Shown here one piece after another: positions 13,284 through 38,399 of a stretch of 39,083 bases of DNA (position 1 is its first letter; each line of letters starts with the position of its first letter). Made by a program: the position numbers and the translations under genes. The notes below the pieces were generated by a model that saw only the letters and a list, made by a program, of their open reading frames with translations, ran no database searches and was not told the DNA's origin. Source of the stretch: an uncultured Lachnospiraceae bacterium (GTDB lineage Bacteria; Bacillota; Clostridia; Lachnospirales; Lachnospiraceae); assembly GCA_905235745.1 (NCBI GenBank), contig CAJOMN010000016.1, positions 1 to 39,083 of the forward strand, read 5' to 3'.

Positions 13284-13820
13284 CTATAACAGGGTATTTC
13301 TGACGCGCTCAATTGCGTGTGTGACAGCCGGTATCGTAACTATTATCAGAGTGATGGCTGCTTCGATATAGATGTATGCACCGTTGTAGCACATACTGTA
13401 TATCAGGGGATTCCATCCCTCGGGGACATACTCGCCAAAGAACGCAACACCCGAAATGACAGCGAATATGAATCTTCCGGTCACACCGGCAAGATATCCG
13501 AACTGCAGACCGTGTTTTGTGTTTTTGAAGAATCCTGAGAGTCCGAGTGCGGTAAAAGCGAATCCGTAGTCAATGATCACCTGGAGCGGAGTGTATATCT
13601 CGGGCTTTTGGACAAACTGAAGTATTCCGTACGCCAGAGCCGCGGTAAGAGAGTATTTCGGACCGTATAAATAGCCGATGACGCACACAAAGAACATTGA
13701 CAGAAGTGTAACCGATCCTCCGAGCGGTGCAGAGAAGATCTTGACAAAGGACAGGACAAAAGCCAGCGCAATGCATATACCGGCAACTGCCAGTCCCTTA
13801 GCGGAAAAAGATTGTTTCAT
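13284..13820 (-). CDS. thiT: Thiamine ECF transporter substrate-binding component ThiT
   Basis: A 178-residue membrane protein of about six helices, the S component that captures thiamine for an energy-coupling-factor transporter; the shared EcfA/A'/T module is not in this window. LSFVKIFSAPLGGSVTLLSM near residue 24, GYLYGPKYS near 49 and the aromatic-rich EYVPEGWNP near 130 are typical of ThiT, whose thiamine pocket is lined by Trp, Tyr and Glu residues. A TPP riboswitch directly upstream independently supports the assignment. GAGG nine bases before the ATG is the ribosome binding site. Confidence 0.95.
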   Translation of the reverse strand: MKQSFSAKGLAVAGICIALAFVLSFVKIFSAPLGGSVTLLSMFFVCVIGYLYGPKYSLTAALAYGILQFVQKPEIYTPLQVIIDYGFAFTALGLSGFFKNTKHGLQFGYLAGVTGRFIFAVISGVAFFGEYVPEGWNPLIYSMCYNGAYIYIEAAITLIIVTIPAVTHAIERVRNTLL

Positions 13821-13829
13821 AGTAAATTA

Positions 13830-13910
13830 CCTCGCTTCCTTACGTCGGTATCAACCGAAATCAAGTTCAAGGGGTTTGATCTCAGACCTTTAAGGGTCAC
13901 CCCCAGCATA
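13830..13910 (-). promoter_or_regulatory. TPP (thiamine pyrophosphate) riboswitch
   Basis: Read on the minus strand, the leader contains the ordered THI-box core: GGGGGTGACCC, hairpin GACC/GGTC, CTGAGATCAAACCCC, TTGAACTTGAT, hairpin TCGG-TTGATA-CCGA, then ACGTAAGGAAGC. It ends at the GAGG ribosome binding site, nine bases before the thiT ATG. There is no room for a separate terminator between aptamer and gene, so translational control (hiding the RBS when TPP is bound) is the likely mechanism; that part is inference. Confidence 0.95.
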
Positions 13911-13919
13911 ACGTAACGT

Positions 13920-25186: not shown

Positions 25187-25230
25187 TGTCAAAAGGTGTC
25201 AAAAGGGACGGTTCTTTTTGTCACTTTTAG
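25187..25230. repeat. REP-like palindromic sequence
   Basis: A tandem GTGTCAAAAG GTGTCAAAAG (25187-25206) runs into GGGACGGTTC and TTTTTGTCAC. The segment 25196-25224 is an imperfect palindrome with GTGTCAAAA at one end and TTTTGTCAC at the other. I recall similar AAGGGACGGTTCTTTTTG sequences scattered in many Clostridia and other bacteria as REP-like elements; that comparison is from memory. It sits between dgt and the acyltransferase gene and creates a false GTG start. Confidence 0.6.
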
Positions 25231-25237
25231 CAACATT

Positions 25238-25981
25238 ATGAGTAAAATGGAAACAACAGGACAATTCATATTACGAAAGCTAAGTGATGCAGGTTCTTTC
25301 CTATACAGGAAGCTGGTGTTCCCGTTTGTTAAGATGGGAATAGAGAGAAAGCGCGACAGTATTATCGGAAAGGGTGCGTATCTCTATAAAGGTACAGTTC
25401 TTGAAGGCAGGGACTATATCGGTGATAAGGCAGAACTTTCAAATGTAAAGATGGGTTACAGCTCTTACATAGGCCGGGATTCTATTTTATCAAATGCACG
25501 TGTGGGAAGATACACTTGTATAGCAGGTCTTGAGACTGCCATCGGACGGCATCCGGTAAAGGGAGAATGCATGTCTGTCCATCCGGCATTTTATTCTGCC
25601 GCCGCCCAATACGGATATTCATATGCGAAGGAGACGTATTATGAGGAAGTAAAATATACCGATAAGGAAAACGGTATATGCATATCAATAGGAAACGATG
25701 TGTGGATTGGAAAGGGTGTAATGATAGCTGACGGGGTCACTGTAGGAGACGGAGCAGTGATAGGAGCCGGAAGCCTTGTGTTGTCGGATGTTGAGCCTTA
25801 TGCGATATACGCCGGCACTCCTGCCCGGAAGACCGGTGATAGATTTGACAAGGATACAGTCCGCAGGCTCCTTGAGCTTCGGTGGTGGGATAAAGGAGAG
25901 GCATGGATAGCTGCACATGCGGATGACTACCGCCGCCCGGATACATTCTTTAACTCATTGGGAGATACAAATGACACATGA
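25238..25981 (+). CDS. Hexapeptide-repeat acyltransferase (XAT/CatB-like)
   Basis: A 247-residue left-handed beta-helix acyltransferase. Hexapeptide repeats run from about residue 42 ([16 protein letters not shown]) to about 200 ([33 protein letters not shown]), interrupted by a loop with the likely active-site region [16 protein letters not shown]. The ending [13 protein letters not shown] then LLELRWWD is characteristic of CatB-like xenobiotic or sugar O/N-acetyltransferases. Likely donor is acetyl-CoA and acceptor a surface sugar, suggested by the sugar-isomerase-like gene that overlaps it. ATG 25238 is chosen over upstream GTG 25196, which lies in a repeat; 25247 is also possible. No clear RBS. 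Confidence 0.88.
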
Positions 25982-26393
25982 ACTGTACAGAAAACTTCAA
26001 TTTGCGGATCTTGGCGACGACAGAGGGAAACTTGTGGTCGCTGAAGGAGAGCTGGACATTCCTTTCAGGATTGAAAGAGTGTTCTACATATACGGTTCGG
26101 ATGATACGGTAGTGCGCGGTCAGCATGCAAACAGGGAATCCGAGTTTGTGCTTATCAATGTCTCAGGCTCATCCAAGGTCATGATAACCGACGGGACGAA
26201 CAAAGAGATAGTCGAACTTAACCGTCCTATGGAGGGAGTGTATATCCCGAAGATGATCTGGAAGGAAATGTATGATTTTTCCCCGGATTCCGTACTGCTC
26301 GTGCTTGCAAGCACCCACTACGACGGCAGTGAGTATATCCGCGACTATGACAGATATCTCAAAGAAATAAGCAAATATAATGCACGAACCTGA
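25971..26393 (+). CDS. FdtA/QdtA/WxcM-type cupin, sugar ketoisomerase family
   Basis: A 140-residue single-domain cupin. The pattern [27 protein letters not shown] then VVRGQHAN near residue 45, SSKVMITDG and [16 protein letters not shown] near 90-105 matches the WxcM-like family whose studied members (FdtA, QdtA) isomerise dTDP-4-keto-6-deoxyglucose to a 3-keto sugar. The usual HAHR catalytic motif reads QHANRE here, with one His kept. GGGAG six bases upstream fixes ATG 25971, giving an 11-base overlap with the acyltransferase. The pairing with an acyltransferase is typical for 3-acylamino-sugar synthesis, but no aminotransferase or dTDP-sugar genes are beside it. Confidence 0.85.
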
Positions 26394-28602: not shown

Positions 28603-28633
28603 AAAAGGGATCCCTGACAGGGGTCCCTTTTTT
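28603..28633 (+). terminator. Rho-independent terminator of groESL
   Basis: Stem GGGATCCC (28607-28614), loop TGACA, GGGGTCCC (28620-28627): eight pairs including one G-U. It is flanked by AAAA before and six T after. Clear intrinsic terminator 30 bases after the groEL stop. Confidence 0.92.
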
Positions 28634-28649
28634 ATATCCAAATCACATC

Positions 28650-28678
28650 TTGCAATATTATTTGAGATATCGCATAAT
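28650..28678 (+). promoter_or_regulatory. Sigma-A promoter of the CotH/VTC operon, start at the ATG
   Basis: TTGCAA (28650-28655), exact 17-base spacer, CATAAT (28673-28678). The ATG at 28686 begins eight bases after the end of the -10, where transcription would start. No Shine-Dalgarno exists between. This points to a leaderless mRNA. Confidence 0.68.
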
Positions 28679-28685
28679 AGTACCC

Positions 28686-29846
28686 ATGAACACAGACATT
28701 ATGACATTCTACGGAGGTAAAAGGGTCTTAATTACCGGCCACACGGGTTTCAAGGGTTCATGGATGACAACCGTGCTGCTGATGGCGGGTGCGAAGATCA
28801 CGGGATATGCCCTTACGCCCCCGACTGATCCGAGTATGTATGAACTGCTCGGATATAACGGTGAGAACGGCACCGCGATCCGTCCCATAACGGAATGTGA
28901 CGGCGAACTTACCAACATATATGCCGATGTCAGGGATCTTGACAGCCTGAAAGAAGCGTTTGACAGGGCGAAGCCGGAAATAGTGATACATATGGCGGCA
29001 CAGCCGATAGTCCGGACTTCATACAAAGATCCGGTATGCACGTATGAGACGAATGTTATGGGTACCGTCAATGTATTGGAGTGCTGCCGGCTTACGGAAT
29101 CCGTAAAGAGTGTCATAAATGTGACCACCGATAAAGTATACCTGAACAGGGAACGGGATGACGGCTACCGTGAGGATGAAGAGCTGTGCGGATATGATCC
29201 TTACGCCAATTCAAAATCATGCTCGGAACTCGTAACATACAGCTACAGGAATTCTTTTTTTGCCGAAAAGGGCGTTCCGGTGACGACAATGCGTGCCGGG
29301 AATGTGATAGGCGGCGGTGATTTTGCTATAGACCGGATAATACCGGACTGTGTCAGAGCAGCGATCGTGGGGGAAGATATCATAGTCAGGAACCCGTATT
29401 CCGTAAGACCGTACCAGCACGTCCTTGAACCCGTGATATGCTATCTGGGCGTAGCGGCAGAGCAATATGACGACCCGTCCGTTGCCGGCTGCTATAATGT
29501 AGGACCCGATGACAGGGATGCCGTTTCTACGGCAGAGATTGCCACGCTGTTCTGTGACGATTGGAACATTAGTACCGGTAAAACCGCTCCGGGAGCCGAA
29601 AGTAATAAAAACACAAGTGAGAAGATCAAGTGGATCAACAAATCTGATGCAGGTCCCCATGAAGACAAATATCTGAAGCTTGATTGTACGAAGATCAGTG
29701 AAAAGCTCGGATGGCGTCCGGTCTGGGATATCGACCGGGCTGTGGGAGAACTTGTTAAATGGTATAAAGCATATAACGCAGGCGATGATCTTACATCTGT
29801 TACAAAACAGCAGATAGAGGAATATATTATATGTTTGAAGAGTTAG
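28686..29846 (+). CDS. rfbG: CDP-glucose 4,6-dehydratase-like nucleotide-sugar enzyme
   Basis: A 386-residue extended short-chain dehydrogenase/reductase. The NAD-binding loop is TGHTGFKGSW (G18, G21, G24), the hallmark of CDP-glucose 4,6-dehydratase; HMAAQPIVRTSYKDP near residue 101, NVTTDKVY near 144 and Y173-ANS-K177 give the catalytic set, and AGNVIGGGDFAIDRIIPD and SVRPYQHVLEP are further family marks. It would convert CDP-glucose to CDP-4-keto-6-deoxyglucose. The partner glucose-1-phosphate cytidylyltransferase is not in the window, so the nucleotide is inferred. It heads an operon with VTC, GT and CotH genes and overlaps the next gene by 16 bases. No RBS; see the promoter. Confidence 0.87.
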   Translation: MNTDIMTFYGGKRVLITGHTGFKGSWMTTVLLMAGAKITGYALTPPTDPSMYELLGYNGENGTAIRPITECDGELTNIYADVRDLDSLKEAFDRAKPEIVIHMAAQPIVRTSYKDPVCTYETNVMGTVNVLECCRLTESVKSVINVTTDKVYLNRERDDGYREDEELCGYDPYANSKSCSELVTYSYRNSFFAEKGVPVTTMRAGNVIGGGDFAIDRIIPDCVRAAIVGEDIIVRNPYSVRPYQHVLEPVICYLGVAAEQYDDPSVAGCYNVGPDDRDAVSTAEIATLFCDDWNISTGKTAPGAESNKNTSEKIKWINKSDAGPHEDKYLKLDCTKISEKLGWRPVWDIDRAVGELVKWYKAYNAGDDLTSVTKQQIEEYIICLKS

Positions 29847-30541
29847 AGGGATTCCGGCATGAATTCAAGTACATAGAGCCGGAGATCAACCTGATCGCGG
29901 TGGAGAGCCGCCTGAAGGCCATCATGAAAAGGGATTCCCATGTAGGTTCGACCGGATTCTACAGCATAAGAAGCCTTTATTTTGATGATTTTAATGACGT
30001 GCTCCTGTATCATAATATTGACGGTATTGATGAGCGTATCAAATGGCGGATCAGGATCTATAACAGTAACGCCAATTTTATCAGCCTTGAGCGCAAGATC
30101 CGCAAATCTGATCTGATCCGTAAGCAGGCATGCAGTATTGATGTTCAGACTTATAACAAGATTATTAAGAGGGAAGCGCGGATATCGGATTCCAATCCTG
30201 CGCTGCTTAATCTGTTTATAGGGGAGATATTGACAACCGGGCTTGGTCCCGCGACCATTGTTGAGTATGACAGGACGCCGTTTGTATGCAATGAGGGAAA
30301 TGTCAGGGTGACAATTGACCGAAATATCCGTTCCTCGGTAGAACTGGACAGATTTCTTTCCGGCGAAACGCTCAATGCAAGGCCGGTGCTTATGTCCGGA
30401 CAGAACCTGATCGAAGTAAAATATGACTCATATCTGCCGGATCATATCGCCCATGCCATTGAGCACGGCAGAATGCGGCGTGAGACATTTTCCAAATACA
30501 ATCTTGCACGCAGATATCCACACGGACGAAGACGTATATGA
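29831..30541 (+). CDS. VTC-domain polyphosphate polymerase family protein
   Basis: A 236-residue cytoplasmic protein made almost wholly of a VTC domain (CYTH/triphosphate tunnel superfamily), the fold that in yeast Vtc4 makes polyphosphate from ATP. The tunnel-lining basic and acidic pairs are in order: RHEFKYI near residue 9, SIRSLYFDD near 44, KWRIRIY near 68, SLERKIRKSD near 82, VEYDRTPF near 142, VRVTIDRNI near 156 and LIEVKYD near 193. AGAGGAA about 8 bases upstream within the previous gene supports ATG 29831. Four-base overlap with the next GT2 gene. Bacterial VTC proteins beside CotH and DUF4956 genes are a recurring set as I recall; the product here is not proven. Confidence 0.9.
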   Translation: MFEELEGFRHEFKYIEPEINLIAVESRLKAIMKRDSHVGSTGFYSIRSLYFDDFNDVLLYHNIDGIDERIKWRIRIYNSNANFISLERKIRKSDLIRKQACSIDVQTYNKIIKREARISDSNPALLNLFIGEILTTGLGPATIVEYDRTPFVCNEGNVRVTIDRNIRSSVELDRFLSGETLNARPVLMSGQNLIEVKYDSYLPDHIAHAIEHGRMRRETFSKYNLARRYPHGRRRI

Positions 30542-31518
30542 AGACTATCAGTGTAATGATCCCGTGTTATAACGAAGTTGAGAACGCGGAACTTATGGCC
30601 AATTCTATAGTGAACATATTCAATGAAGCGCTGCCCCGGTACGATTATGAGATAGTGTTCATTGATAACTGCAGTAAGGACGGGACAAGAGAAGTCATCC
30701 GTAACCTGTGCGCCCACAATCCCAGGATCAAGGCGATATTTAACGTAACGAATTTCGGACAGTTCAATTCTCCGTTCTACGGGATATGCCAGACTACGGG
30801 AGACTGCACCATATCGATAGCGGCTGATTTTCAGGAGCCGGTCAATATGATCCCAGTATTTGTCCATGAATGGGAGAAGGGACACAAGATCGTCAGCGGT
30901 ATCAAGACTTCGAGTAAGGAGTCAGGGATCCTCTATTTCCTGCGCAGCTGTTATTACAAGGTGATCAGGAAAATGTCGCCGGTAAAGCTTATAGAGCATT
31001 TCACGGGATTCGGACTGTACGACAGATCGTTCGTGAAATTACTTCGTGAACTTGACGATCCGATACCTTTCCTTCGCGGGATAGTCGCCGAGTATGCCGA
31101 GGGCTTCAATATGGTCGAGGTTGCATATGAACAGGAAGAGCGCAGAGCCGGCAAGACGCACAATAATTTCTACAGCCTATATGACGGGGCAATGCTCAGT
31201 TTCACGAGCTATACAAAGGTAGGCTTGAGGCTTGCCACGTTTACGGGCTTTATAGCCGGATTCATCAGTTTCATCGTTGCCATCGTATATCTGATACTGA
31301 AGCTGACGCACTGGGGATCTTTTACCGCAGGGTATGCTCCGATGGTGATCGGTGTGTTCCTGCTGGGGTCGCTCCAGCTGTTCTTCATAGGATTTTTGGG
31401 CGAATATGTCCTTAATATCAATACGAGAGTCATTCACCGCCCTGTCGTCGTCGAGGAAGAGCGGATCAACTTCGATACGGGGCAGCAGTCTTCACAGGTG
31501 ATTAATGACAGAGTTTGA
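30538..31518 (+). CDS. Family 2 glycosyltransferase, GtrB/DPM1-like
   Basis: A 326-residue GT2 enzyme. ISVMIPCYNEVENAELM at the start, VFIDNCSKDGTREVI near residue 39 and the metal site AADFQEPVNM near 99 form the GT-A core. HFTGFGLYDRSFVKLL and the basic EERRAGKTHNNFYSL near 200 are typical of undecaprenyl-phosphate sugar transferases. Two C-terminal helices lie near 231-257 and 266-290. It likely charges polyprenyl phosphate with a sugar for use by the next gene product, a polytopic transferase. It overlaps both neighbours by 4 and 14 bases. Confidence 0.93.
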   Translation: MKTISVMIPCYNEVENAELMANSIVNIFNEALPRYDYEIVFIDNCSKDGTREVIRNLCAHNPRIKAIFNVTNFGQFNSPFYGICQTTGDCTISIAADFQEPVNMIPVFVHEWEKGHKIVSGIKTSSKESGILYFLRSCYYKVIRKMSPVKLIEHFTGFGLYDRSFVKLLRELDDPIPFLRGIVAEYAEGFNMVEVAYEQEERRAGKTHNNFYSLYDGAMLSFTSYTKVGLRLATFTGFIAGFISFIVAIVYLILKLTHWGSFTAGYAPMVIGVFLLGSLQLFFIGFLGEYVLNINTRVIHRPVVVEEERINFDTGQQSSQVINDRV

Positions 31519-33103
31519 TCATCAGAAACTACCATATAAAATCATGACGATAGCCGTTGCCGCGGCTGCCGTTTTCTTTGTATGCAGAACGCTCTATGCC
31601 GGATTCATAGCCCTGCCTTACCCACAGGAGCTGCTCGAAGCATCGAACGTGGCGCTTACTAATATGTTCCTTGACGGAAAGACTCCGTATTCGGCAGCAT
31701 CGCTCCGGTATGATGTTCCGGGGATCAATTATGATTACCCGTTCTTTTCGAGCCTGGTGGCAGCCGCCATTGCCGGAGTAACCGGGTGCAGCGCGGTCAC
31801 GGCACATTTTGTCATTTCCGTTATCAGTATCCTCGGTTCCGGCGCCATCGGATACTTTACTGTCAGAAGATACAGCCGGACGACCATTGCCCCGATCCTT
31901 GCCGCCCTTTTATTCATGATATGCCACTGGCGGTACGGATACATATCCGCAGCACCGGATGACCTGGGACTGCTGATATTGATGCTGACATTATACGGCG
32001 CGGCATCGCCAAAGCTGAAACATAAGCCGCTATGGTGCGCGATAGGCATCACATTGTGCTTTTATACGAAACAGTATCTTGTATTTGTCGCCATACCGGT
32101 ATTTATCTATATGCTGCTGTATTCGCGCAGGGAAGCATTTAAGCTATTTATCATTACGCTTGGCATCAATATAGCGGCAGCGGTCATAATCACCGTCGAA
32201 TGGCCGCTTTACTGGATGAGGGCGTTCGCTTTTACCTATATCGGCGCGGGAATGGGCGGAGGATTCAGGTTCTCAACATTCCTCGAGCAGCTCAATTACC
32301 TGCTGTACTCGTTTGCGGCGTTGTTTGCGATAGTAGTAGTGGCGATCATAATAGCAGTCAGAAAGCACAGAGATAAGGCAAAGAGACTAAATATCCGGGA
32401 AAACGATGCATTTGCGCTTTCCGCGGTATCTTCGATCGTCATGATCGCACCGCTCATGGTCATAGGCAGGAATGACGGTGCCCTGATGTCGTATTATCTC
32501 CAGCTTTGGATGCACAGCGTCGTCGTCGTTGCGCTTGTGTGCATGGAACGCATGAAGCCGGAGGATGAGCCGCAGAACATGAGAAAAGGCTGCATATTTG
32601 CTGCCGCGTATGCCTTTGTCATTGCGATCACCGTATATTTCGGTTTCGGCCGGCTCCCGCTCCATGTTCTTACAAGGGAAGAGCGTGCGAATTGGGAGAA
32701 GGCATATGAAATTACTGCAAAGTACAGTGAATCCGGCGATGTTTTCTATTCAAGAAGCCTCGCATACGACGGTTTTGCGAGAGGAAACGGCGAGTGGATG
32801 TGCGGACATGAAGGCGAGGTCGATGATGAAGCGGTATCCAACATCGAGAATGCCGGTGTTCCGATAGAATTCTTCCCTTATACCGAGCCGCTTGTAGAGC
32901 AGAACAATGCCTACAGGAAGGGGCTTGTGGAAAAGGCGGCAGATCACGGATACTCGCTTATTACGTTTGAAACAGGGGATTCATTCACGGAATTTAACGA
33001 AGAGGTATGCAAACGCTGCGGATACACATGTATAGACAAGATAGAGCTTCAGCTCGGGCTCATGTCGTACGAGGTGCAGTTCTATGTGGTTAGGCAGAAT
33101 TGA
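31505..33103 (+). CDS. Polytopic membrane protein, GT-C glycosyltransferase-like
   Basis: A 532-residue protein with about ten to eleven hydrophobic helices (first at residues 13-33, last near 365-385) and a soluble C-terminal domain of about 140 residues. The first outer loop has acidic LLEASNVALTNMFLDGKTPYS and YDVPGINYDYPFFS, resembling GT39/GT87-type lipid-sugar-dependent transferases, though the fit is by layout more than by motif. AGGTGA just before ATG 31505 is the RBS, inside the preceding gene. Directly downstream of the GT2, the two would form a load-and-transfer pair for a surface glycan. The next gene follows after 21 bases. Confidence 0.8.
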   Translation: MTEFDHQKLPYKIMTIAVAAAAVFFVCRTLYAGFIALPYPQELLEASNVALTNMFLDGKTPYSAASLRYDVPGINYDYPFFSSLVAAAIAGVTGCSAVTAHFVISVISILGSGAIGYFTVRRYSRTTIAPILAALLFMICHWRYGYISAAPDDLGLLILMLTLYGAASPKLKHKPLWCAIGITLCFYTKQYLVFVAIPVFIYMLLYSRREAFKLFIITLGINIAAAVIITVEWPLYWMRAFAFTYIGAGMGGGFRFSTFLEQLNYLLYSFAALFAIVVVAIIIAVRKHRDKAKRLNIRENDAFALSAVSSIVMIAPLMVIGRNDGALMSYYLQLWMHSVVVVALVCMERMKPEDEPQNMRKGCIFAAAYAFVIAITVYFGFGRLPLHVLTREERANWEKAYEITAKYSESGDVFYSRSLAYDGFARGNGEWMCGHEGEVDDEAVSNIENAGVPIEFFPYTEPLVEQNNAYRKGLVEKAADHGYSLITFETGDSFTEFNEEVCKRCGYTCIDKIELQLGLMSYEVQFYVVRQN

Positions 33104-33124
33104 CAGTAAGAGAGGAGACATATT

Positions 33125-33799
33125 ATGAACACATTTTCAGACATTTTCAAAAAATCATTCCTTGAAGGATATGCCAGCGTTGAGCTGTCTGCCAAGCAGA
33201 TAGTTGTGGTCATATTCTTTGCGGTACTGCTGGGACTGTATATATACGCGGTCTACAGATTCCTTACCAAGAAGACATTTTATTCCAAGAGCTTCAATAT
33301 TTCCCTTGTACTTATGTCGGTCATTACCGCCGCGATCATCCTGACAGTCCAGTCGAGCGTTGTGATCTCACTCGGTATGGTCGGTGCCCTTTCCATCGTC
33401 AGGTTCAGGACCGCGGTCAAGGATCCGATGGATCTTTCGTTCCTGTTCTGGTCGATATCCGTCGGAATAATATGCGGTGCGGGACTCGTTGAGATAGCAA
33501 TAATACTATCTGTTATCGTAACAGTTGTTATCTACGCACTTGACCGTATACCGGTCATCAAGACACCTATGATTCTCGTTGTAAACGCCGGAGTTGACTC
33601 GGATGCGGGGATACTCGAGAAGATCAGGGAGAATACGGGGTATTACGAAGAAAAATCACGTGTCATTACAAACGGAGTCCTTGAGCTCGTATATGAGCTT
33701 CGTACAAAAGATTCCTCAGCGTTGTCCAAGGCTGTCTCATCGGTACCGGGAGTAAATTCGGTGTCGGTGATGTCTCATGACGGGGAAGTAAGCTTTTAA
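33125..33799 (+). CDS. DUF4956 membrane protein
   Basis: A 224-residue protein with four predicted helices in its first 140 residues and a cytoplasmic C-terminal domain (about 145-224). The most conserved-looking segment is SLGMVGALSIVRFRTAVKDPMDLSFLFW near residue 80-107, which is the DUF4956 signature. Function is unknown. GAGAGGAG eight bases upstream supports the ATG. DUF4956 genes commonly neighbour VTC-domain and CotH genes, as here, which suggests a membrane partner for the polyphosphate-type enzyme; that is inference. Confidence 0.9.
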   Translation: MNTFSDIFKKSFLEGYASVELSAKQIVVVIFFAVLLGLYIYAVYRFLTKKTFYSKSFNISLVLMSVITAAIILTVQSSVVISLGMVGALSIVRFRTAVKDPMDLSFLFWSISVGIICGAGLVEIAIILSVIVTVVIYALDRIPVIKTPMILVVNAGVDSDAGILEKIRENTGYYEEKSRVITNGVLELVYELRTKDSSALSKAVSSVPGVNSVSVMSHDGEVSF

Positions 33800-33813
33800 C
33801 GTGACCGACCGCT

Positions 33814-35724
33814 ATGAATGCACGGAGAAGACCGCTCAAATATACGATACCGGTTCTGTTTACGGCCTGCCTTACCATTCTGGTATATTTCGCGCCTCGT
33901 GTTAAAACGCCGCATGAACTTGTAATATATGATGTTCACGCGGACAGTCCGCGTATAATAAAGGCTGATGGGACGATAGAATTTGCGGATTATGTCCGTA
34001 TAAGGAATATGACAGATCATCCTTATGATCTTACGGGACTGTTCCTGTCGGATTCGGCAAAGGATTATGCCAAGCTTCCGCTCGACGGGGTAGTGGTGGA
34101 TTCCGGCGGATCGGTAATGATAAAGCTCGATCCGAGCTGGAACTTTGCGTTGAAGCGTGACAGGAGTGAAAATGTATACTTATCGGACATGAGAGGAAAC
34201 ATACTCTTCAAGTATACCGGGAGCATGCGCCCGGACAGACCGGTACTTTCCGCAGCGAGCGGATTCTATGATGATGATTTTCTGTTGAAAATGTCGGTCA
34301 AAGGCGACAGCCCCATCTACTATACTCTTGACGGAAGCGAACCCGATCAGGGTTCATATGTCTATGATGAGCCGATCCGTGTATATGACCGGTCGGAAGA
34401 ACCCAACACCGTTGTAAACGTTCCCAATACGATCAAAAGATATCTTGAAGATGAATATTATGATGAAGAGACAGGAGAAACAGTTGAGGTCGAAAGACCC
34501 ATAGAAGAACCTGTAGACAAGGCGTTCATAGTGCGAGCCGCATCCATAGACGAATATGGCAATAAAAGTGACACTGTGACACGTGAATACTTCTTCTGCA
34601 AGGATAAATACAGGAATATCATATCCGTGGTGGCAGACAGGGATGATCTGTTCGGACCATACGGGATAGTATCAACCGGCGCAGCGTATGATGAGTGGTA
34701 TCAAAACGGGCAGGAGGGCAGTGAGCCTGATGTTAACTACAATGAGAAGGGAAGAGCCTGGGAAGTTGCCGCCGATATGGAATATTTCAGGGGATCTGAG
34801 AGCGTACTTACCCAAAAATGCGGGCTAAGGCTCCAGGGGAGGACCACAAGAGACCGCAGGATCAAGAATTTCCAGCTTCGCGCCAGGAACTGTTACAGCG
34901 GGACGGATGTGTTCGGGTATGATTTTTTTGACGACGAACGGTTCAGATCCGACGGGATAGTGCTTGATGACAATTTTTATGAATCGGTATTCTACGACCT
35001 TGTGGAAGATGAGGATATAATCAAACCGAAGACAACGGACAGGATTGCGCTCTTCATTAACGGCGAATTCTGGAATAATGTATATATCAGGCAGAGGATC
35101 GATGAGAAATATTTCGAAGACCATTACGGGATAGCCCCGGATAATCTTGTGATACTGTCGGAATCGTTTCCGGAAACGGACTACGCCAATGAGGATGAGT
35201 ATAATGAGATAAGGGGCTGGTATTCGGCAATAGATGATTATGCAGATGAGCATGATCTTGCGGATGAAGAGAATTATGAAGCGCTTGGGACGATGATGGA
35301 TGTGGACAGCTTCATGGATTATCTTGCGATCAATACATGGGCTGGCAATACCGACTGGGCGGAATATAATAATGATATGTACTGGAGAGTCAAAATACCG
35401 TACGACGATTCATACGGTGACGGAAGGTTCAGGTGGATGCTTCATGACGGGGATTATGCTTTTAGGGATCTGATAAAGATCGAGGATGAATGGTTCCTGC
35501 GGCAGGGTCCGTTATATCCTAATCTGCTTCAAAATGAAGACTTCAGAAACAGGTTTGCCGCAAGGCTTGAAGAGCTTGGAGACACTGCATTTTCGGAAGA
35601 AAATATCAGGAGTCGCCTTGAATCCGGCAAGTGGGACGAGCCGGAACTGGGTCTGATTGAGCAGTTCCTGCTGGAAAGAAATACTACTATACAGGAAGTC
35701 ATTAACAGGATACGAAATGACTGA
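33814..35724 (+). CDS. Membrane-anchored CotH-kinase family surface protein
   Basis: A 636-residue protein: signal-anchor helix near residues 8-27, a lamin-tail-like domain (about 35-130), a chitobiase/beta-hexosaminidase C-terminal-like region (about 142-265, PIYYTLDGSEPD near 168) split by an acidic insert, then a CotH domain from about 330. CotH features include LRLQGRTTRDRRIKNFQL, LFINGEFWNNVYIRQRIDEKYF, NTWAGNTDW with D514, NNDMYWRV and MLHDGDYAF with D545 and D547. Spore-coat CotH phosphorylates serines using such Asp residues; CotH proteins of non-spore surface systems also occur. Starts 14 bases after the DUF4956 stop without an RBS. The substrate is unknown; no CotB-like Ser/Lys repeat protein is in the window. 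Confidence 0.9.
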   Translation: MNARRRPLKYTIPVLFTACLTILVYFAPRVKTPHELVIYDVHADSPRIIKADGTIEFADYVRIRNMTDHPYDLTGLFLSDSAKDYAKLPLDGVVVDSGGSVMIKLDPSWNFALKRDRSENVYLSDMRGNILFKYTGSMRPDRPVLSAASGFYDDDFLLKMSVKGDSPIYYTLDGSEPDQGSYVYDEPIRVYDRSEEPNTVVNVPNTIKRYLEDEYYDEETGETVEVERPIEEPVDKAFIVRAASIDEYGNKSDTVTREYFFCKDKYRNIISVVADRDDLFGPYGIVSTGAAYDEWYQNGQEGSEPDVNYNEKGRAWEVAADMEYFRGSESVLTQKCGLRLQGRTTRDRRIKNFQLRARNCYSGTDVFGYDFFDDERFRSDGIVLDDNFYESVFYDLVEDEDIIKPKTTDRIALFINGEFWNNVYIRQRIDEKYFEDHYGIAPDNLVILSESFPETDYANEDEYNEIRGWYSAIDDYADEHDLADEENYEALGTMMDVDSFMDYLAINTWAGNTDWAEYNNDMYWRVKIPYDDSYGDGRFRWMLHDGDYAFRDLIKIEDEWFLRQGPLYPNLLQNEDFRNRFAARLEELGDTAFSEENIRSRLESGKWDEPELGLIEQFLLERNTTIQEVINRIRND

Positions 35725-36797: not shown

Positions 36798-38399
36798 ATG
36801 AAGCCGATAAGTACATCAATATCAAATTTCAGTAATCTAATCAGTGCAGGTTACCTGTATGTGGACAAGACCGAATCAATCTACAACATGGTAAGCGAGC
36901 CTTTTGGACAGTATTTCTTTTCAAGACCGAGAAGATTCGGTAAAAGCCTTACGGTAAGCACCCTTGAAGCAATTTTCGAGGGAAAGAAGGAACTGTTTGA
37001 AGGCTTGTTTATTTATGATACGGATTATTCATGGGAACAGTTTCCGATAATACATTTTGATTTCGGCCGAAGCGACAGTTCGACGGCTTCAAACCTTGAG
37101 GAGTGGCTTAAACTGGAACTGACCGATATGGCAGAAAATCATGATGTCAAAATATCAGGAAGCACTCCGGCTCTAATGCTGGGTGAACTAATTAAGGCAT
37201 TATACAATAAGTATTCCAAGGGTGTTGTTATATTGGTGGATGAGTATGACAGACCTGTTACCAACAATCTTGAGGATGGCAAGGGCATCAAACAGATCAG
37301 CAGGGTCATGGAATCCTTCTACCAGATAATAAAGGGATATGAAGCTATGGAGCGCTTTGTATTCCTTACCGGAATTACCAAACTCAGTCAAGTATCGGTA
37401 TTCAGCAAACTGAATAATCTGGTGGATATCAGCAGGAGTGATAAATATTCGGAATTAGTGGGATATACAAGTGCAGAACTTGAGAAGTACTTCGGGGAGT
37501 ACATGGAACCTGCCGCTTCTAAGAATGAATGTTCAAAGGCCGAGATATTTGATAAACTCGCATACTGGTACGATGGGTTTAAGTTTTCTTTTGAGGGAGC
37601 AAAGGTTTATAATCCGGTTTCTATAGGCAGGTTTTTTACAGAAAACTATGAATTTAGGAACTATTGGTATGCAACCGCTACTCCTGTTATTTTGGTCAAT
37701 CTTGCCAAGAAGCAGAAGATTACACTTCAAAGTATAAATGATATTTATGTAACGGATATTTCTCTCAATTCGTTCGATATTACGGCACTTGCTGACAATG
37801 ATGCGGATTCTTTGACAGTTACACAACTGCTACTGCAGACGGGATATCTGACTCTGGGTGAAAAAGATCCAAACAACAATATGCAGGCATACAGACTGGT
37901 TTATCCGAACAGAGAAGTTCAGATGTCTTTTGAGATGAATCTTGCATCGGTATACATGGGGAGGTCGATCGCAGAGATCAATACAATTGCCTCCAACCTG
38001 CAAAAGGCAGCATATAATGGTAATGCAGATGAGATGATTGCTATACTAAAGGGTGTATTTGCGAGCATCCCGTATGGAATCCAGTTAAAATATGAGAAGT
38101 ATTATCAGTCATTATTATATCTTGTGTTCAAGATGTGTGGGATGGATGTAAGGGCTGAGGAACAGACATCCATAGGCAGAATAGACGCTACGCTGGACAT
38201 TGGAAATATCATCTACATAATAGAGTGCAAACTGGACAAAACAGCTCAAGAGGCAATGAACCAGATAGAGGACAAGGACTATTTCGGAAAGTATGCCGTA
38301 TCTTTTGAAGAGAACAAGAGAGTAATCGGATTAGGTATTAGCTTTTCTACTGATAAAAATGTAAGAAATATAGATGATTACATTATAAGAGAGTTTTGA
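36798..38399 (+). CDS. AAA-ATPase fused to PD-(D/E)XK nuclease-like domain
   Basis: This 533-residue protein has the paired AAA-ATPase-like (PF09820 type) and PDDEXK_9 (PF08011 type) domains. YVDKTESIYNMV near residue 21, Walker A RPRRFGKS with K49, Walker B VVILVDEYDRPV near 142, and the C-terminal nuclease motif GRIDATLDIGN with D463 followed by IIECKLD with E476 and K478. The family is abundant and often multicopy in gut Bacteroidetes and Firmicutes; its role is unknown, with mobile-element or defence roles suggested by genomic scatter. No Shine-Dalgarno; apparently leaderless. A decayed transposase lies immediately downstream. Confidence 0.92.
   Translation: MKPISTSISNFSNLISAGYLYVDKTESIYNMVSEPFGQYFFSRPRRFGKSLTVSTLEAIFEGKKELFEGLFIYDTDYSWEQFPIIHFDFGRSDSSTASNLEEWLKLELTDMAENHDVKISGSTPALMLGELIKALYNKYSKGVVILVDEYDRPVTNNLEDGKGIKQISRVMESFYQIIKGYEAMERFVFLTGITKLSQVSVFSKLNNLVDISRSDKYSELVGYTSAELEKYFGEYMEPAASKNECSKAEIFDKLAYWYDGFKFSFEGAKVYNPVSIGRFFTENYEFRNYWYATATPVILVNLAKKQKITLQSINDIYVTDISLNSFDITALADNDADSLTVTQLLLQTGYLTLGEKDPNNNMQAYRLVYPNREVQMSFEMNLASVYMGRSIAEINTIASNLQKAAYNGNADEMIAILKGVFASIPYGIQLKYEKYYQSLLYLVFKMCGMDVRAEEQTSIGRIDATLDIGNIIYIIECKLDKTAQEAMNQIEDKDYFGKYAVSFEENKRVIGLGISFSTDKNVRNIDDYIIREF

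Follow-up and report, generated by a model that had tools for sequence, protein, structure and literature searches.

Just behind its groESL genes, the window analysed here, a stretch of 39,083 nucleotides from an uncultured Lachnospiraceae bacterium (GenBank assembly GCA_905235745.1, contig CAJOMN010000016.1), carries six tightly packed genes on one strand (28686-35724) that encode, in this order, RfbG, VTC, GT2, GT-C, DUF4956 and an anchored CotH. What might a nucleotide-sugar enzyme, two glycosyltransferases and the VTC, DUF4956 and CotH proteins (hereafter the trio) do together? We here describe the locus, follow its gene families through related genomes and weigh the readings that the data allow. 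The features of the locus are as follows (bit scores are from family models).

28607..28633, + strand: terminator-like hairpin 3′ of groEL; 8-pair stem with one G-T pair, 5-base loop and T6 tail, read directly
28650..28678, + strand: promoter-like TTGCAA-17-CATAAT, 7 bases before the ATG at 28686; predicted leaderless transcript
28686..29846, + strand: RfbG, CDP-glucose 4,6-dehydratase; TIGR02622, 405.3 bits (equivalog cut-off 278), model positions 1-352 of 352
29831..30541, + strand: VTC-domain (triphosphate tunnel) protein of the polyphosphate polymerase type; PF09359, 121 bits (cut-off 23)
30538..31518, + strand: GT2, type of the polyprenyl-phosphate sugar transferases; hydropathy shows two hydrophobic segments; PF00535, 75.8 bits
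31505..33103, + strand: GT-C membrane glycosyltransferase (PMT_2); PF13231, 32.5 bits, narrowly above the cut-off of 26.1
33125..33799, + strand: MgtC-like DUF4956 membrane protein that ends in an ACT/ferredoxin-like domain; PF16316, 48.5 bits (cut-off 30.6)
33814..35724, + strand: CotH kinase; hydrophobic anchor at the N-terminus, a weak lamin-tail and a chitobiase-like module; PF08757, 71.4 bits (cut-off 23.8); PF13290, PF13287

Layout and predicted transcription of the operon

According to the open reading frame coordinates, neighbouring genes overlap by 16 (RfbG/VTC), 4 (VTC/GT2) and 14 bases (GT2/GT-C), followed by gaps of 21 (GT-C to DUF4956) and 14 bases (DUF4956 to CotH), which confirms the original prediction, made from the letters of this DNA alone, that all six overlap or lie within about 20 bases of each other. 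The six genes are thus predicted to form one transcript. Its origin at a single promoter behind the groESL terminator, as originally proposed, is a prediction too. On the one hand, the hairpin after groEL can be read directly (GGGATCCC-TGACA-GGGGTCCC-TTTTTT, 28607-28633), and a layout of -35 element, 17 bases, [CT]ATAAT, 6-7 bases and ATG occurs at six of the seven loci with RfbG as first gene (the window, L118, L120, L121, L122 and L123). On the other hand, a generic promoter and terminator scan did not report the groEL hairpin and, finding no more promoter-like sites than in shuffled sequence (21 versus 24.2), was uninformative for promoters; moreover, the seventh locus (L093) differs, with TTTACA-18-TATAAT and then 34 bases to the ATG. 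The layout was not found at RfbG genes inside operons (L124, L125, L126), and TTG-N20-CATAAT-N6..11-ATG occurs once in the window when both strands are searched. The pattern was first spotted in an alignment and searched for afterwards. Its support is its conservation, and this is not simply that of a groESL tail, because groEL is oriented the opposite way in L121 and does not lie alongside in L120. Given the short distance between -10 element and ATG, a leaderless transcript is predicted. The originally claimed start at 28650 has to be given up: it is only the first TTG of the RfbG frame, at the same place as the -35 hexamer of the promoter-like box, the likely start being the ATG at 28686.

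Downstream, a Rieske gene (35771, 46 bases past CotH) was a single member in our neighbour-gene clustering and was kept out of the operon, as was a predicted AAA-ATPase with a PD-(D/E)XK nuclease domain (36798-38399), likewise a single member. The names groESL, AddAB-like (large helicase-like), dGTPase-like and ECF-type for window genes were assigned by eye, with no family search.

The six encoded proteins

The sugar-related half of the original prediction, a nucleotide-sugar dehydratase and a GT2 plus a polytopic GT-C-like protein, is substantiated: RfbG passes its equivalog cut-off (405 versus 278 bits) and both glycosyltransferases pass those of Pfam, the GT-C narrowly. Among NCBIfam models, the GT2 matches PgfS best (NF047588, 151.6 bits, cut-off 500), followed by an ArnC-type model (93.6 bits, cut-off 529). 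The GT-C protein has seven hydrophobic segments by hydropathy, and no solved relative was found for it by sequence under E 0.8. Its E42 and E45 are invariant in 15 aligned proteins including the window's; in GT-C enzymes, an acidic residue in the first loop on the outer side is catalytic.

The window VTC is a protein of 236 residues without a transmembrane segment by hydropathy, as are 152 of the 153 VTC proteins collected below. Searched as a single sequence it retrieved no solved relative, and as a profile it found yeast Vtc4 best (3g3q, E 3e-8), with Vtc2 at 0.002. Vtc4 is the catalytic subunit in yeast, and its R264 and R266 are reported to be essential (PMC8749416; this and the other papers cited here are represented by excerpts). 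Both align with R73 and R75 of the window protein, where Vtc4 numbering is that of the alignment plus an inferred 3-residue chain offset. Twelve positions (K71, R73, R75, E87, K89, K98, Y146, R148, R159, D163, E195, K197) are identical in all 150 VTCs of more than 190 residues. In 148-149 of these, R9, E11, K13 and K222 are kept; position 69 holds R or K, whereas R27 and R47 are variable. The basic motifs noted originally are thus intact, with no loss of active-site residues in this alignment. The protein may make polyphosphate. Like Vtc4, it has the tunnel domain with the R264/R266 equivalents, but unlike the yeast VTC complex it has no detected SPX or membrane part, and its membrane neighbour is the MgtC-like DUF4956. 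A role as the sole polyphosphate synthase was considered and dropped, since PPK1 is present in the genome.

The DUF4956 assignment stands as well (48.5 versus 30.6 bits). Its structural model (mean pLDDT 64.7) comprises five long helices, with a transmembrane part of low confidence, and a C-terminal domain for which the MgtC C-terminal domain 2lqj ranks first in the PDB (E 1.9e-3; no match reached 0.001 or lower). This fold match is weak: shell-protein, ACT and other ferredoxin-like domains score similarly, and a second MgtC structure (7qa5) follows at rank 7.

For CotH, the original prediction was an extracellular kinase with lamin-tail and chitobiase-like modules. The N-terminal anchor and the chitobiase-like module (PF13290, 34 bits, cut-off 22) are in line with this, whereas the lamin-tail match stays under the Pfam cut-off (22.4 versus 34.3 bits); a CotH paralogue encoded elsewhere in this genome exceeds it (48.6). 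No solved relative of the kinase part was found by sequence searches, and the top two PDB matches of the structural model (mean pLDDT 64.2) are Bacillus cereus CotH 5jd9 and 5jda (E 2.4e-5 and 3.9e-5; target-normalised TM 0.44-0.46). Of 104 CotH proteins encoded within 6.5 kb of a VTC gene, the 103 with at least 400 residues were analysed: all have a hydrophobic stretch within their first 70 residues and D514, and all except one have D545. At position 547, 51 carry D and 50 carry N. Judged by spacing in relatives, D514 and D545 are the presumed equivalents of D228 and D251, the catalytic aspartates of B. subtilis CotH (PMC7821199). The protein is like the Bacillus spore coat kinase in family, fold match and, presumably, its conserved Asp residues, and unlike it in its N-terminal anchor, its chitobiase-like module and its operon, which is of an envelope rather than a spore coat type.

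The trio across genomes and its relation to Pel clusters

VTC genes were collected with PF09359 from three sets: this genome plus 36 congeners (86 matches, 80 retrieved; the six left out, three of them partial, are from G030 (1), G031 (3), G032 (1) and G035 (1)), 24 other genomes of the order (16 matches, all used), and a phylum sample of 299 genomes at least 90% complete, this one included, of which 48 had a match (57 matches outside our own genome, all used). The total is 153 VTC genes, two being fragments of one gene. Neighbours were labelled with profiles built from the window proteins and from a Cthe_2159 protein of this genome (L009) and from neighbour-gene clusters, representatives being checked against Pfam.

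DUF4956 lies within 5 kb of VTC in 148 of 153 cases (genus 79/80, order 16/16, phylum 53/57), and both DUF4956 and CotH do so in 95 (53, 8 and 34, respectively), so that the recurrence of the three families in bacteria, as originally put forward, is now counted. A Cthe_2159 gene is found at this distance from 39 VTC genes (genus 20, order 5, phylum 14), two of which also have CotH. Across 90 loci, the rank correlation of tree distances reaches 0.872 for VTC-DUF4956 (maximum of 300 permutations 0.209), as compared to 0.349 for VTC-CotH (null maximum 0.142) and 0.389 for DUF4956-CotH (0.100). VTC and DUF4956 evolve as a pair, and CotH follows more loosely.

Further genes accompany the trio at some loci. 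Of the 153 VTC genes, 50 have a response regulator and a histidine kinase encoded at most 5 kb away (among loci L024-L115 and L133-L188). At L032 (9805-12375), a gene between VTC and DUF4956 encodes a further enzyme of the envelope type, in which a YidC-like (60KD_IMP) and a sulfatase domain are combined, and genes of the same cluster are present at L052 and L084 (domains are those of the L032 copy). An MBOAT O-acyltransferase cluster gene (Pfam on the L066 member) follows shortly after the trio at L041, L049, L067 and L099.

The trio itself is not new. Genes for cotH, a polyphosphate polymerase and DUF4956 have been described as contiguous with pel in streptococci, clostridia and bifidobacteria (PMC7112168), and in S. 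intermedius deletions of SIR_1592 and SIR_1594 (CotH) change Pel amount and aggregation (PMC12345266). SIR_1592, described there as MgtC plus ACT, is taken here as the DUF4956-like gene. In a virulence-associated locus of C. perfringens, VTC and CotH genes occur together, and the membrane protein encoded between them, annotated as tubulin/FtsZ (PMC2879425, PMC11677781), is probably DUF4956. The expectation of an undescribed system therefore fails for the trio, published as Gram-positive Pel accessory genes (PMC7112168, PMC12345266); it is the six-gene form that is new, as far as the excerpted literature goes. For the trio together with RfbG, GT2 and GT-C, no description was found in the titles and abstract starts of the open-licence PMC matches listed, which is not proof of absence.

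Could the window operon then be a relocated Pel accessory set that serves Pel biosynthesis? The likeness is considerable: the Gram-positive Pel clusters (cotH, polyphosphate polymerase, DUF4956, DUF4832; SIR_1592-1594) contain the same three families contiguously, with a secreted CotH and a four-transmembrane protein with an ACT domain, and the published contiguity in three bacterial groups is matched by PelF/PelG genes beside the trio at six loci of the genus and one of the phylum sample. Unlike in Pel clusters, the partners in the window are RfbG, GT2 and GT-C, with GT2 and GT-C lying between VTC and DUF4956. PelF/PelG lie within 5 kb of only 7 of the 95 trio VTC genes, and the trio's role is probably broader than Pel, because the other 88 have no such neighbour. 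For 25 of the 95, less than 5 kb of sequence is available on a side, and Pel neighbours may have escaped detection there. These counts disagree with a 2025 paper whose excerpt reports trio synteny only at Pel loci (PMC12345266), the scope of its search lying outside that excerpt. Even the order CotH-VTC-DUF4956, taken as that of S. intermedius, occurs in the genus both with and without Pel (without, for instance, at L029, L044, L046, L055 and L103). This genome, 99.46% complete, has no PelG match; PelF was not searched genome-wide, and neither PelF nor PelG is among the operon proteins. Given the lack of PelG, the Pel gene searched for, a Pel origin is rejected for this genome, and a Pel-serving operon is very improbable.

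One surface pathway or several

How widely do the sugar genes join the trio? A profile search with GT-C returned 15 loci, all from Lachnospiraceae metagenome bins, several of them from rumen; ten of these were taken to be contigs already in the congener set and thus do not count as new evidence. Ten loci (the window and nine of the 15) have a GT-C at least 50% identical. Nine of these carry RfbG (all except L119; 485-500 bits to the window-built profile), nine the window-type GT2 (the L122 contig ends) and seven a contiguous trio (all except L118, L121 and L122). The seven linked loci show six gene orders, from that of the window (RfbG-VTC-GT2-GT-C-DUF4956-CotH) to RfbG-GT2-VTC-DUF4956-CotH-x-GT-C in L123 and VTC-DUF4956-CotH-GT-C-RfbG-x-GT2 in L125 and L126. 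Eight VTCs linked to RfbG or GT-C (window, L033, L045, L054, L060, L071, L077, L093) fall into one clade with a support of 0.996, which holds no other VTC among 146. Since the linkage is confined to one clade and comes in several gene orders, the six-gene set appears, from these sequences, to have arisen within one lineage and to have stayed together through some rearrangement. Beyond close relatives, the six-family neighbourhood, whose absence there had been named as a refutation, was not found: in the genus, 9 of the 53 trio VTC genes have GT-C within 5 kb, as against none of the 8 from the order set and none of the 34 from the phylum sample; the corresponding numbers are 7, 0 and 1 for RfbG-type and 11, 0 and 3 for GT2-type genes. 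GT-C itself is found in this genome and in one of 245 others of the order sample.

Because the trio recurs widely and, within one lineage, is joined time and again by genes for sugar and lipid-linked-type transfer, the most economical reading is that a Pgf-like lipid-linked sugar unit and a surface phosphorylation or polyphosphate module work as one surface-decoration pathway. We give this reading an even chance. In its favour count the near-constant VTC-DUF4956 pairing, the conserved residues, the recurrent linkage within one lineage, the CotH genes next to sugar genes elsewhere in this genome (see below) and the altered Pel amount and aggregation after deletion of SIR_1592 and SIR_1594 in S. 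intermedius (PMC12345266). A precedent for the sugar half is the pgf operon of S. mutans, which encodes the GT2 PgfS, the PMT-like proteins PgfM1 and PgfM2 and the epimerase PgfE and decorates surface proteins (PMC5856776). The window operon resembles it in having one GT2, a PMT-like membrane protein and one nucleotide-sugar enzyme, but differs in that the sugar enzyme is a CDP-glucose 4,6-dehydratase, the GT2 is under the PgfS cut-off, the trio is added and no adhesin gene is seen alongside.

In such a pathway, RfbG would make CDP-4-keto-6-deoxyglucose in the cytosol and enzymes encoded elsewhere would finish the sugar; GT2 would load the 6-deoxy sugar onto polyprenyl phosphate, and GT-C would transfer it, on the outside, to a surface glycan or protein. 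The cytosolic VTC would make polyphosphate at the membrane together with DUF4956, possibly as a complex, the MgtC-like protein either regulating VTC or passing its product on, and the outward-facing CotH would phosphorylate the surface material decorated by RfbG, GT2 and GT-C. The identity of the sugar, the lipid carrier and the acceptor, and likewise the substrate and phosphate donor of CotH, are presumptive parts of this scheme. Together, this hints at a cell surface decorated with both sugar and phosphate.

Several observations weigh against this reading. The linkage is limited to one genus-level group and may therefore be an inherited neighbourhood. Even in the genus, GT-C is missing from the 5-kb surroundings of 44 of the 53 trio VTC genes, and of the six more distant GT-C loci (28-36%) two have the trio (L128, L131) and four do not (L127, L129, L130, L132). 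The modules are also separable: L118 and L121 have RfbG-GT-C-GT2 without the trio in the run. In five of the seven linked loci, VTC-DUF4956-CotH-GT-C form an unbroken string, so that only RfbG and GT2 move. L042 and L087, with a diverged GT-C, lie outside the main VTC clade, the smallest clade with all ten counting 23 members. As for the proteins, the GT2 score falls far short of the PgfS cut-off (151.6 versus 500) and permits only a "works-like" claim, the DUF4956 and CotH models both have mean pLDDT values of only 64-65, PPK1 is present, two further RfbG copies above the cut-off lie on contig C1 of the same genome, and for deletion of SIR_1593, with its polyphosphate polymerase domain, no aggregation change is reported in the excerpt at hand (PMC12345266).

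Should these points be taken further, two independent pathways would share one site, a VTC-DUF4956-CotH cassette having moved beside or into a Pgf-like unit after groESL, and co-location would reflect a permissive place and common descent rather than joint function. That L118 and L121 carry their trio-free RfbG-GT-C-GT2 runs by groEL fits this view, as does the confinement of the linked set to one clade in one genus. Trio genes of another type also lie in the same wider region, past large helicase-like genes (L032, L052, L084), and in each of two congeners VTC is matched five times, partial matches included. However, the families stay together in six orders over seven loci, including L119, L120, L125 and L126, which have no groEL alongside, and the window VTC sits between RfbG and GT2 with overlapping frames. 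We regard two separate pathways as rather unlikely.

Alternatively, VTC and DUF4956 may be a regulatory or phosphate-sensing unit, in which the MgtC-like DUF4956 with its ACT-like domain tunes a surface polymer encoded nearby and no polyphosphate donor is involved. In line with this, the C-terminal domain of the DUF4956 model is nearest to MgtC C-terminal domains (2lqj at rank 1, 7qa5 at rank 7), the two-component genes mentioned above lie near 50 of 153 VTC genes, and S. intermedius lacking SIR_1592 had more Pel but aggregated less, with no change reported in the excerpt for SIR_1593 (PMC12345266). Against it, the fold match is weak and common to other ferredoxin-like domains, and VTC and CotH hardly vary at their active-site positions, which suggests working enzymes. 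We regard this alternative, too, as rather unlikely.

A more specific form of the surface-decoration pathway would have polyphosphate, made and exported by VTC/DUF4956, serve as the donor with which the anchored CotH phosphorylates the glycans or glycoproteins decorated by RfbG, GT2 and GT-C, outside the cell, where ATP is scarce. CotH with conserved residues and an anchor is indeed linked to a conserved-residue VTC at 95 VTC genes. Yet 37 VTC genes are accompanied by Cthe_2159 but not by CotH, the genome also encodes PPK1, and the excerpted S. intermedius data for SIR_1593 (PMC12345266) speak against the idea, which we hold to be improbable. CotH is unnamed in the titles and abstract starts of the kinase and polyphosphate-donor literature among the matches listed. 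With a polyphosphate-type polymerase inside and a kinase outside the same membrane, the phosphate supply of an extracellular kinase becomes directly testable, and with the six-gene form a candidate for the acceptor pathway is at hand.

Related genes occur elsewhere in this genome. On contig C1, one CotH gene is followed by YfhO and a PgfS-like GT2 (206.7 bits, cut-off 500), and another lies two genes from RfbH, with SDR and RfbF next; all three CotH genes found in the genome are hence near sugar-transfer or CDP-sugar genes, the part on C1 being rich in such genes. One of the extra RfbG copies on C1 adjoins RfbF- and RfbH-like frames (judged by eye). The notion that the window RfbG is the sole CDP-glucose dehydratase completing the RfbF/RfbH set of C1 was discarded in view of these two copies. 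Contig C21 (L009, 8153-12561) carries a second VTC-DUF4956 pair and, after it, genes for a carbohydrate-binding protein (Cthe_2159) and a channel of the MscS type. In the second, diverged type of GT-C-linked trio (L042, L087), a gene of the window's dGTPase-like cluster lies between GT-C and CotH.

Within the window, a hexapeptide acetyltransferase gene and FdtA, a WxcM-like sugar ketoisomerase (PF05523), lie just before groESL (25196-26393); both are kept in L071, L077 and L090 and might provide a further deoxysugar step. On the minus strand, a thiamine pyrophosphate (TPP) riboswitch (13820-13914) lies upstream of a membrane protein gene (13284-13820) that, by eye, encodes an ECF-type transporter component.

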